This document shows, in pieces, positions 59,577-63,573 of a DNA stretch of 64,000 bases. The notes beneath the pieces were generated by a model. It saw only the letters and a program-made list of their open reading frames with translations, searched no databases and had not been told where the DNA came from. Source of the stretch: Ciborinia camelliae (lineage: Eukaryota; Ascomycota; Leotiomycetes; Helotiales; Sclerotiniaceae); contig JANPYM010000002.1 in assembly GCA_025890175.1 (NCBI GenBank), positions 2,056,537-2,120,536 on the forward strand, given 5' to 3'. Positions within the stretch are counted from its first letter, which is position 1. Each line of letters opens with the position of its first letter. Both the position numbers and the translations under genes were made by a program.

Positions 59577-60355
59577 TGATTGAGTGAGATATGGTAGTTG
59601 AAGACTAAGGGAAATGCGCTTAAATTTGAGTTCAAAAAAACAGGAGGAGAGTAAGGAGGTAAATCCAAACAAAACGTTAGAGATGCGTAGATGTGCTACT
59701 AAGCCCTGCGGCACATATGTGGCTGACTCACTTGCATCTGCTCAAACACATCACCAACAATGCCCTGTAATCCTCTTGAGATTTATTGGATTTAGACTTC
59801 AAAGATAAATCCTTTCCACCAAACAGTTTGACTTGATTTCTCTCTTCCTGAGCAAGATTAAGACTGTGCCAACTATAGCAGTTTCATACCATTTCAGCCT
59901 GATGGTGAAATCCCTCCCAACTTATAGAACATCCCCAACCAACCTCTTTAAACCTCTTTCACAAAGAAGTCCAGTCATCAAAAAAGTTTAGGATACTTGC
60001 TCATCCTAATAAGACTGCACAGGCAGAGAATAACATTCTTTGAGTTATCGATATGATGTTATTATATGTCATGTCAAAATAAGTTATGGTCAAACTCATG
60101 ATGAACATGGACCTGACTGAAAGATAAACTTGGTTTGGTGGGACCCAAGTACCCTGAGCCAGAGTGGACCGAGTGGTAACTTTCTCGCTTACCAGTACTG
60201 TAGTATCCACTCCACTCTTATAATAAACAAAAGAGAAAAAATCTTCAACAAATGCATTAACATATCAAAAAGACATTATAGACCCCTCAGCCCTTCAAAA
60301 AAGAGTCCTAAAATTACCATTAGATGGCTAAATGACCAAAAATGAAAATATCAGA
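59577..60355. other. Intergenic region ML gene / tRNA-Met
   Basis: 780 bases with the ML-gene promoter and the flank 3' of the tRNA. No further tRNA or ORF is supported. Confidence 0.5.
60338..60348 (-). terminator. Pol III terminator T-runs after tRNA-Met
   Basis: In tRNA sense, TTTT (60348-60345) and TTTTT (60342-60338) begin 8 and 14 bases past the discriminator base, the usual place for RNA polymerase III termination. Confidence 0.65.
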
Positions 60356-60484
60356 TAGCAAGTCCCAGTTTCTGTCACGTGATGTTAGTATTTTGAATTA
60401 TTTTTTGAATTTGGAGATGAAAGCTTACCGATCTGGGGACCTCCGGGTTATGAGCCCGGCGCGCTTCCACTGCGCCAACTTGCT
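60356..60484 (-). tRNA. Initiator tRNA-Met(CAU) interrupted by a 57-nt T-loop insertion
   Basis: Exon A is 60484-60429 and exon B is 60371-60356. Joined, they form a 73-nt cloverleaf with no mismatch. The acceptor AGCAAGT pairs with ACTTGCT. The D stem is GCGC/GCGC, the anticodon arm CCGGG-CTCATAA-CCCGG, the T stem CCCAG/CTGGG, and the discriminator base A. It has the eukaryotic initiator hallmarks: A1-U72, three G-C pairs closing the anticodon stem, and a T loop AUCGAAA with A54 and A60 instead of the usual T54. The insertion falls between G57 and A58, splitting the B box. Its borders and branch site are those of a spliceosomal intron, not of a tRNA intron at 37/38. Either this is an active gene needing unorthodox splicing, or a recently interrupted pseudogene. 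The perfect stems favour recent or ongoing function. Confidence 0.85.
60372..60428 (-). other. Spliceosomal-type intron inside the tRNA-Met T loop
   Basis: 57 nt in tRNA sense, starting GTAAGC and ending GTGACAG, with TACTAAC about 13 nt before the AG. These are the same signals and size as the mRNA introns of this window. The sense strand has no run of four T, so it lacks a pol III terminator. One G can be assigned to either border; the GT-AG choice is preferred. Confidence 0.85.
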
Positions 60485-61013
60485 TGTTGTTTGATGAAGG
60501 TTCTGCGTGATTTTGGATATATATTGGGGAAATTGCAGATGGACCGATTGTGGAAAGAATGAGTCACAGTACAAGAGAATTTTCTCAAATAGGAAAGAGG
60601 GGCACCATTCGGGATCATTTCGGTATATTTTCTTTTGGGTGAGGTGGAACGGACAAAAACTGTAACTGTGTAAGATGACTGTAAGTGCAACATCAAAGGC
60701 AAAATTGTGTGAATGCAATGGATTTTTTGTATCGAGAGCATTTACTCGTTCTTTTCATTCTCAGTTATCTCATGACAAGATAGATATCTGTATCATTTTC
60801 TATCTACTCAGTACAGAATACTACCATACATCAAACCCCCAAACATATAATCGCTAACTTTTTGCATCAGGATATCAAAACATCATAAAGCTCCGTTGCA
60901 CTCCCCGAGAATAATAACAACCAACATGCTATACCAGAAAAACTTTTCACCATTCGTCCTTCTAGATTTGTATACCTCAAGACTCACTCAGAGCCTCTTC
61001 ATTCACAAGCATC
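60485..61013. other. Intergenic region tRNA-Met / LysM gene
   Basis: 530 bases holding the 5' flank of the tRNA and the 3' end of the LysM gene. ORFs crossing into the tRNA are chance frames. Confidence 0.5.
60518..60524 (-). promoter_or_regulatory. TATA-like element upstream of tRNA-Met
   Basis: TATATAT lies at -34 to -40 relative to the first tRNA base, in a CCCCAATATATATCC context, and CAACAA lies just before the tRNA. TATA-directed pol III transcription of tRNA genes is known in fission yeast; here it could compensate for the split B box. Inference. Confidence 0.4.
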
Positions 61014-61700
61014 TTAAGAGATAACAGTGAGACTGTCTGAAAGAGGTTGGCAGTTCATTGGAATGGTAAGAACGGGCGAAAGGGATTCAACCGAATCACT
61101 GTATCTGTATCCAGTGTTGAATCCAAACAATTGACCAACAGTAGAATTGTATTCCTCAGCCAAATCCTTGTACACACCGTAAGTGAACTGATATGGTTGA
61201 ACAGTACACTCAGAAGGACTGCATTGGGGTAATTTCATGTAACTGGTAGTGGTAATAACTTCATCAGCAGAGGAGACACCGAGCATGGAAGTGATAGCCT
61301 CGGTTGAGATGACGGAAACATCAAGGTTGAATTTGATGGCGATTTTGTTGAGGGTATCGTTGCGGACGGGGGTGTAGGTGTGAGGTCCTCCGTAAACACA
61401 GGAGGTGGTATCGTTCGATGCAGTGAGGAGACACGAATCATTGTCTGGATTGCAAACTTCGGCCGGAATGATCAAGACGAAACCGGTGTCAATGTATTCA
61501 GCATCTGGCATTCTGCTGGCGCGAGCAATATCACAAACACCGCGGTTGGTGGCGGCGGCAATGCTGAAGATGGTATCGGTTTCGGTTACAGTCCAGGTGG
61601 AGGCAGTGGTATTGAGGTTTGCTGTCGTGCAATTGGTATCCTCAGCGAAGGCAATTGAGGCCAAGCATGAAGCGAGGAGGGTAGCTTGAGAGATCTTCAT
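61014..61700 (-). CDS. Secreted LysM-domain protein (candidate LysM effector)
   Basis: Intronless, 228 aa from the ATG at 61700. A clear signal peptide (MKISQATLLASCLASIAFA) is followed by a Cys-rich mature protein without membrane anchor. LysM 1 spans about 36-79 (WTVTETDTIFSIAAATNRG ... LIIP), LysM 2 about 107-158 (HTYTPVRNDTLNKIAIKFN), and a third weaker repeat about 170-214 (YQFTYGVYKDLAEEYNSTVG ... VLTIP). Several N-glycosylation sequons (NCT, NTT, NDT, NST) are present. Fungal LysM effectors bind chitin oligomers and keep them from plant immune receptors, or shield hyphae from chitinases. That role is inferred from family and from the absence of any catalytic domain. The longer frame upstream of 61700 (to 61955) has no signal peptide and looks like leader sequence. 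Confidence 0.92.
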   Translation of the reverse strand: MKISQATLLASCLASIAFAEDTNCTTANLNTTASTWTVTETDTIFSIAAATNRGVCDIARASRMPDAEYIDTGFVLIIPAEVCNPDNDSCLLTASNDTTSCVYGGPHTYTPVRNDTLNKIAIKFNLDVSVISTEAITSMLGVSSADEVITTTSYMKLPQCSPSECTVQPYQFTYGVYKDLAEEYNSTVGQLFGFNTGYRYSDSVESLSPVLTIPMNCQPLSDSLTVIS

Positions 61701-63573
61701 TATGATTATTGGAAGGTCGTGGGGTTCGAACTGTGGTTTGTATAAGAACAGATTATCTAGTAAATGACTGAATGACTGAATGACTGAATGAATAGATGAG
61801 AAAAGCAGAGAACGATTGAAACTTCTTATAGTTGAAGCTTTCACCTGTACATACAGTCTGGCCCTCCTGGCGCCCTGGGTATTCTGTAAGTACCGTGCGT
61901 ACCAAGTGCGGATTGATGCGCTGACTGGGGGTATTGTGGATATCCCGTGGCCCAACTGAGCTGAGGTAAATCACTGCATCACATCAATATGTTCCAGGGC
62001 AATGAACGAGTAACTGAAACCTTCAGCTACCTACTTCTCTGTCTCTGGCCAAAATTATCAGGATACAGGTGGTGCGTACACCCTGCTACATACTGAATGC
62101 ATACAAGATACCCATCTATCCGGGCATGCACGTAAACAGTTGTGATCAATGCATATTGAAACAAGCAACAGCAAAAGGAATTTTTAGATGGACCGAAACA
62201 TCTAACCTTACTTGGACGGGTTTTGAGGGAGGTCAAAGTCGTGCCATCGTAATGCATTACGAATCTACAATACAAGATAGGCGGCGAAAGGGGAACTTTG
62301 GATGTTCCACGCGAAAAATGATAGTGGGTCACCCCGCATTGCCCACCTACATTGAAGAATCAGGACCTTCGGTACCGAAAGTCTTGGCTGAAGTTTGAAG
62401 AAAAATAAACATTTTGTTTGATCTTGATAATTGAGGCGTGTCCGAGTATCAGTAACTTTTTGAAAATATCAATTGCCAGGTTATTTTTGCAGGAAAAGCG
62501 TCCAAAAGATAAATGAGTACCTAACTTCCAGTTTAGGAAGTTGTTGCTGGTCTAGTTTTCAGTCGGTTCCGACGATAAGGCTGGGGTCAATTGACGCCAG
62601 TAAGGAGTATCAAAAAATGATTGGAAAGATGGACCTTCAATTTCGTTCATGTTGAAAAAAGTGCCTCAATTGCATATTTGCGGTGAGCCACACACAGCTG
62701 GCAACACGAGCGGCACCGCAAGCAAGATAGATGCTGAGGAGTCGTTGACGTTAGTCCTTTTCTTTCAGCCGATCGCAGTCTGGATTCCTAGTGGGATTCG
62801 AGACTAATAATGAGACTACGCAAAGATATCAGGTCATATTCCACTTGATCAGAATGGGTACCAATAATATGGTGTAGTATACACCACAAAGGGAACTCGT
62901 AGCTGTTGCGGAATATGATGAAAGCGTCATCATGCTACAGTGGATATGATTGAAGATATTTGCGTTAAATCCATATGGTTTTATTTGTATTTGGTTCCGC
63001 GTTGCATTTAGATTTCAAATCCATTATTCGTATTACGAATTCTCAAAGATAGATGTCTCTAGCATATAAATGCGCAAGTTGTGCTTGAACTCCAAGTTGG
63101 CAGATTCACATTTTTTGGAATGTTTTCATGTCTAGAAAGAAGGAAGGATAAGTAGACTCTTTCCAGTTTTCATTGCTAGGAATTGACTTGTATGTTAAGA
63201 TCTGATACATATCACCTGTTGATTATTCTCATCTGCATAATCTTAACACGATTTGACGTTATTTCAGATCCAAGGGTTGAGTCAATAGACCAGTCACATA
63301 GGTGATTGCATTACTCTCCGATTTCAAAAGATCCAGCGCATGTATGATTCATTTCTTCAATAGACGGTCTATTCAGTGCCTCAAAACGAACCTCCTATGC
63401 TCTTATCGCCTTACAAAATCAGGAGAAATGTATATATGTTGAGCCAATACGAGGACCAAATATCAAAAAATTACCCTCTTCTTGGGCCATCTTTATTTTC
63501 TTTTCATTGGGAAAGTTCTGGAGGGAATGTTTTTTTTTTTTTTTTGAAGAAAGGCCTCATGTTTCAATATACC

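Follow-up and report, generated by a model that had tools for sequence, protein, structure and literature searches.

Putative spliceosomal introns in the T loop of two nuclear tRNA genes of Ciborinia camelliae

The split initiator tRNA gene and its intact copies

The window, the whole stretch of 64,000 nucleotides analysed from the fungus Ciborinia camelliae, contains on its minus strand (60484-60356) a gene for the initiator tRNA-Met (iMet) which is interrupted in the T loop between positions 57 and 58 (57|58). Its 5' exon (60429..60484, minus strand; tRNA positions 1-57) comprises the 5' strand of the acceptor, the D arm, the anticodon arm with CAT, the 5' strand of the T stem and the T-loop bases ATCG, and its 3' exon (60356..60371, minus strand), which provides the T-loop bases AAA, the 3' strands of T stem and acceptor and the discriminator A, pairs with the 5' exon across the intron at 5/5 and 7/7 positions respectively. 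The mRNA-type intron of 57 nt in between (60372..60428, minus strand) reads GTAAGC...TACTAAC...ACAG, and its branch-site sequence TACTAAC at 60384..60390 (minus strand) places the presumed branch A, as read from the sequence, at 60385, at a distance of 13 nt from the end of the intron. In the joined molecule the acceptor (7/7), D (4/4), anticodon (5/5) and T stems (5/5) are paired throughout (21/21 pairs). A sequence-only reading of this DNA had placed the gene and its 57-nt insert (60372-60428) exactly to the base, with a cloverleaf that is complete after joining, and every sequence feature tested agrees with the mRNA-type signals (GTAAGC, TACTAAC, ACAG) which it had pointed out.

ARAGORN calls the joined exons tRNA-Met(CAT) and makes no call on the unjoined sequence, in which Rfam recognizes part of a tRNA at 24.7 bits, short of the gathering score of 29; run on the window, ARAGORN and Rfam (at its gathering score) detected nothing. 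As those standard tRNA finders miss split genes, more of them may be hidden in fungal genomes.

In the genome examined (46.2 Mb, 27 contigs), the joined iMet exons are identical over 72/72 nt to three uninterrupted iMet genes, with the 5' exon at 100% identity and the intron missing from all three. The presence of several intact iMet genes elsewhere had been named beforehand as an observation that would speak for a pseudogene, and three such genes indeed exist. On its 3' side, the flank of the split gene is similar to that of one intact locus (L002) at a level not reached by shuffling (score 45 vs a maximum of 31 in 300 shuffles) and, by BLAST, matches the 3' side of another (L003; 75%, E 1.2e-4). 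In the shuffle test the 3' flanks of L003 (36 vs 41) and L004 (19 vs 33) fail, and the 5' flank of the split gene passes against none of the three intact loci. Since no sequence similar to the iMet intron was found elsewhere in the genome, there is no sign of an introner-like family.

At a distance of about 0.3 kb from one intact iMet gene there is a decayed iMet-like copy (26.3 bits; L003 1121-1191, minus strand, near C27:1935711), whose changes look by eye like C-to-T/G-to-A decay. It exemplifies how a dead copy can appear in this genome. Searches for relatives in prokaryote and viral collections gave no matches, as expected for a fungus. For a protein of the window, among the best 120 of 1522 matches, the top identity that carries an organism name belongs to Sclerotinia nivalis (85% over 65% of the query), and the best-scoring named match to Lachnellula cervina (70% over 96%). 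This result is compatible with the Sclerotiniaceae assumed in the sequence-only reading, at a resolution short of the genus.

A second split gene for tRNA-Ile

One partial tRNA family match led to a second split gene on the same contig, a tRNA-Ile(AAT) at C12:2449844-2449970, with an insert of 54 nt at the T-loop position 54|55 that displays GTAAGT, TACTAAT and GTAG and a branch A 13 nt before its end. Joined, it pairs at 7/7, 4/4, 5/5 and 5/5 positions (21/21) and is called tRNA-Ile by ARAGORN, which makes no call on the unjoined sequence. No other copy of this sequence was found in the genome. Regular tRNA-Ile(AAT) genes are represented by seven pattern matches (C2:658529, C2:1754641, C12:4245104, C12:4250530, C15:117334, C23:2441104 and C25:1607799), of which three were fetched and confirmed; each of the three has an ordinary intron in the anticodon loop, which in one case measures about 75 nt. 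The split and the regular gene are identical at 53/74 aligned positions and differ at 21, and by hand count the stems show seven two-sided pair changes and one change to wobble with zero pairs broken; four of those eight changed pairs fall in the T stem, across the intron. Such paired changes show that the fold was constrained at some time, which does not imply constraint after the gain of the intron.

By eye, the two tRNA introns have only the splice signals in common, and they occupy different T-loop positions; on those grounds their gains look independent, and gain of introns by tRNA genes at least twice is the best reading of the two loci.

How many more such genes exist was addressed by pattern searches and by a splice scan, which retains an intron-like segment if its removal yields a T loop, a T stem of 5/5 pairs and an acceptor of at least 6/7. 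Over about 0.3 Mb of partly overlapping DNA, the scan returned only the split iMet and the split Ile gene. The T-loop 54|55 pattern gave six matches in the genome, among whose fetched loci the scan kept only the Ile gene; five matches to an elongator 57|58 pattern were rejected, with 2, 2, 4, 4 and 3 of 5 T-stem pairs and, by eye, introns in coding sequence. Two split tRNA genes are a lower bound, the genome-wide search having covered GTANG donors at the T-loop positions 54|55 and 57|58. The Rfam tRNA search was lossy, with 62/2182 candidates scored, and missed the three intact iMet genes as well as the split iMet gene.

Introns of the mRNA type in U6 and U3 genes of the same genome

The sole U6 gene above the Rfam cut-off (C25:1810274-1810380, L040) contains a 53-nt mRNA-type segment, GTAAGT...CTAAC...TAG, whose boundary was read by eye rather than from a scored joined model; the gene matches Rfam well from the UGG region onwards, and the segment sets its 5' stem-loop (GCC-TTCG-GGC) apart. 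Both U3 genes found (C25:446625, L111, and C26:1271515, L112) possess an mRNA-type intron at the same 5' site, GTGAGT or GTAAGC...CTRAC...CAG, between the common flanks ATCGACAATACT and TCAAAGAATCAT. Together with the second split tRNA, those U6 and U3 introns in the same genome make the iMet case more than a lone oddity. A further U6-like match at C6:53104 (29.9 bits) lies below the cut-off.

Identity of the inserts

The sequence evidence that the iMet and Ile inserts are introns is strong. Both are GT-AG segments with the fungal donor consensus (GTAAGC..CAG in iMet, GTAAGT..TAG in Ile), and both contain, as TACTAAC and TACTAAT respectively, the branch motif RCTRAY at a distance of 6-36 nt from the end of the intron, a definition taken from work on fungal U3 (PMC5832005). 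Their lengths of 57 and 54 nt would fit mRNA introns of this organism, to judge from two small reference sets, five pattern-picked introns of 47-55 nt located by eye in coding sequence and 16 loosely picked candidates of 43-109 nt. How readily such signals arise by chance was estimated with the rule GTRNGY, CTRAY 6-35 nt from the end and YAG, applied to both strands of the window: 3/127,886 stretches of 57 nt pass (~2e-5), the iMet intron itself being within that window, and so does 1/127,892 stretches of 54 nt (~8e-6). Pairing of T stem and acceptor, on the other hand, gives four matches per 20 Mb of random strand and hence about 18 expected for both genome strands, so that this test is weak alone and the full cloverleaves together with the identity of iMet to its intact copies are decisive.

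The positions 57|58 and 54|55 are not the 37/38 of introns of the Sen type. In the bulge-helix-bulge (BHB) layout, intron nucleotides 2-5 pair with nucleotides 2-5 of the second exon; in the single register examined by hand, this central helix forms 0/4 pairs in iMet and 2/4 in Ile. The introns alone fold weakly (0.0 and -2.1 kcal/mol for iMet and Ile respectively). Both tRNA introns bear spliceosomal signals. Use of the unspliced RNA as such was considered and rejected, the loop by eye then being left without a matching T-stem strand in either gene.

Transcription signals around the split genes

As a reference, 78 ARAGORN genes in the fetched loci provided 74 distinct flanks. The 12 bases CATCAAACAACA directly upstream of iMet (60485..60496, minus strand) recur 6 nt before the split tRNA-Ile. 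The motif CATCAA, which was chosen after the split genes had been inspected, is present in the 35 nt upstream of 15/74 tRNA genes vs 27/1824 background pieces, and at both split genes. A TATA-like ATATATAT (60517..60524, minus strand) is located at -40 to -33 of iMet; in the tested range, TATA is found in 46/74 tRNA flanks vs 309/1824 background pieces, and the iMet gene possesses it, whereas the split Ile gene does not. Downstream of iMet, TTTT and TTTTT (60338..60348, minus strand) resemble Pol III terminators: TTTT begins 7 nt (iMet) and 5 nt (Ile) past the gene end and occurs within 40 nt downstream of 59/74 tRNA genes vs a window background of about 17%. The lack of TTTT within the intron was discarded as a sign of Pol III transcription, as 13/16 loosely picked candidate introns are also without it.

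In both the iMet and the Ile gene the internal B box is split by the intron. The best B-box-like sites within -60..+350 reach -0.7 (iMet) and 2.5 bits (Ile), at a background median of 1.7 and a 90th percentile of 6.6, so that no clear replacement B box is seen at the split genes within this range. With the same matrix, ordinary tRNAs have a median of 18.4 bits and the split iMet junction about -10, and intact iMet genes score only 3.3, which makes the matrix weak for initiator-type boxes, among which a weak one might escape notice. In vitro, an upstream TATA allows yeast tRNA genes to be transcribed independently of TFIIIC (PMC3978253), which suggests that Pol III transcription of the split genes is possible.

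Discussion

Two nuclear tRNA genes of this fungus, we propose with a probability of roughly 0.6, have their T loops interrupted by U2-type spliceosomal introns that are removed by the spliceosome before the tRNA ends are processed. Transcription of each split gene, probably by Pol III, would give a precursor and, because the intron splits the B box, would rely on upstream TATA/CAA-type elements together with the A box. The spliceosome would excise the intron from the tRNA precursor in the nucleus; as T loop and elbow could form only after intron removal, splicing would precede end processing, with RNase P, RNase Z and the T-loop modifying enzymes acting thereafter, and the spliced tRNAs may then be used in translation. 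The reading is supported by the exact GT..TACTAAC..AG insert of iMet in combination with 72/72 identity, by a different intron in Ile with the same 13-nt branch A spacing and 21/21 pairs, and by a Pol III-like start and stop at iMet and a CAA element and terminator at Ile. The wider proposal, that the spliceosome serves as a tRNA-maturation enzyme, with a minimum of two Pol III precursors, including that of the initiator, becoming functional only upon T-loop splicing at the price of the B box, and that tRNA genes are open to spliceosomal intron gain, stands at even odds. The suggestion of the sequence-only reading that the iMet tRNA or its precursor is processed by the spliceosome is thus upheld in part: its intron by sequence, the second tRNA case and the U6 and U3 introns favour it, and the intact iMet copies and the broken B box weigh against it.

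The main rival is that mRNA-type introns entered two redundant tRNA genes, for example by reverse splicing, with loss of the B box and genes that are silent or whose transcripts are degraded. We regard this as unlikely yet serious: the B box is broken in both genes without a clear substitute, synonymous genes remain for both (the three intact iMet and the regular Ile-AAT genes), and a 2014 review regards a eukaryotic tRNA gene with a T-arm insertion as a pseudogene when it is one among many synonymous genes (PMC4090602). Given the intact iMet copies and the broken B box, a silent gene is conceivable, and intact exons may reflect only a recent insertion. Against dead genes speak the zero stem pairs lost in either gene and the zero exon bases changed in iMet, the 21/21 pairs which the Ile copy keeps despite 21/74 differences from the regular gene, the retained start and terminator elements and the intact splice and branch signals in both.

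Improbable, though less so than the explanations that follow, is a location of both tRNAs inside Pol II transcripts, a lncRNA or a 3' UTR, from which the intron would be spliced and the release of the tRNA would be optional. In favour of such transcripts are the lost B box and the position of iMet, which follows the stop codon of an ORF on its own strand (61014-61970) at about 0.5 kb, whereas about 0.4 to 3.4 kb upstream of Ile (L104) no same-strand ORF of at least 90 codons is found, the longest ORF in 2 kb of sequence on the downstream side of Ile (L105), beyond the nearest 0.4 kb, is on the opposite strand, and Pol III-type terminators follow both genes. The protein of ORF 61014-61970 (minus strand) looks by eye like a secreted one.

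An intron of the Sen/BHB tRNA endonuclease at an unusual site, as in archaea, nucleomorphs and Cyanidioschyzon, is very improbable. T-arm introns of that type are known and the eukaryotic Sen complex may act without a strict local motif (both PMC4090602), but there is no BHB in the single register tested, the introns fold weakly, and GT, branch and AG signals would have to coincide in both genes. Chance or an assembly artefact is negligible. T stem and acceptor alone would give roughly 18 random matches per genome (both strands), but iMet agrees with its intact copies over 72 nt, both loci have full cloverleaves when joined, and random intron-likeness is ~2e-5 (57 nt) and 8e-6 (54 nt).

Introns of the mRNA type in fungal U6 snRNA genes were reportedly described by Tani and Ohshima in 1989 and Canzler in 2016, and a Mol Biol Evol title of 2000 is said to announce spliceosomal introns in ascomycete nuclear rDNA. 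In fission yeast, splicing of an mRNA-type intron is documented for the U6 precursor, which is made by Pol III (PMC10484740). Like the split tRNAs, fungal U6 is a Pol III non-coding RNA gene with a short intron that bears mRNA splice signals, present also in this genome, but U6, unlike a tRNA, is a component of the spliceosome and a natural site of reverse splicing, and the promoter of a tRNA lies inside the gene. U3 introns are reported from 78/147 fungal genomes, Botrytis cinerea and Sclerotinia sclerotiorum being listed, and share with the split tRNAs a structured non-coding RNA, the intron layout GT..RCTRAC..YAG and an occurrence in only some paralogs (PMC5832005); U3 is, in contrast, a snoRNA of about 270 nt with its intron near the 5' end, whereas the tRNA fold measures 72 nt and is interrupted in its T loop. 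The rDNA introns are likewise of the mRNA type and reside in structural RNA not made by Pol II, although this is rRNA transcribed by Pol I; those of lichens are removed by the splicing machinery (PMC8527467).

Most nuclear tRNA introns occupy the 37/38 site and are substrates of the Sen complex, which cuts them (PMC4090602); they interrupt tRNA genes as those here do, which in contrast are split in the T loop at 57|58 and 54|55 with GT, branch and AG signals. The T-arm introns of archaea, nucleomorphs and Cyanidioschyzon agree with ours in location but are BHB or very short inserts (PMC4090602). The main text of this review contains no word starting with 'spliceosom', and the open-licence literature searched yielded no description of a nuclear tRNA gene with a spliceosomal intron.

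If the proposed splicing is true, tRNA joins mRNA, U6, U3 and rRNA as carriers of spliceosomal introns; iMet, of which identical copies persist without interruption, would for that reason be a clean case of intron gain and would test the action of the spliceosome on a short, probably uncapped tRNA precursor.

As a separate observation, ARAGORN lists tRNA-like genes with very long anticodon-loop inserts of 46-87 nt and odd isotype calls (L047, C6:1288571; L052, C3:697299; L059, C3:1965561; L069, C3:1967672; L070, C2:2159636), two of which are located about 2 kb apart.
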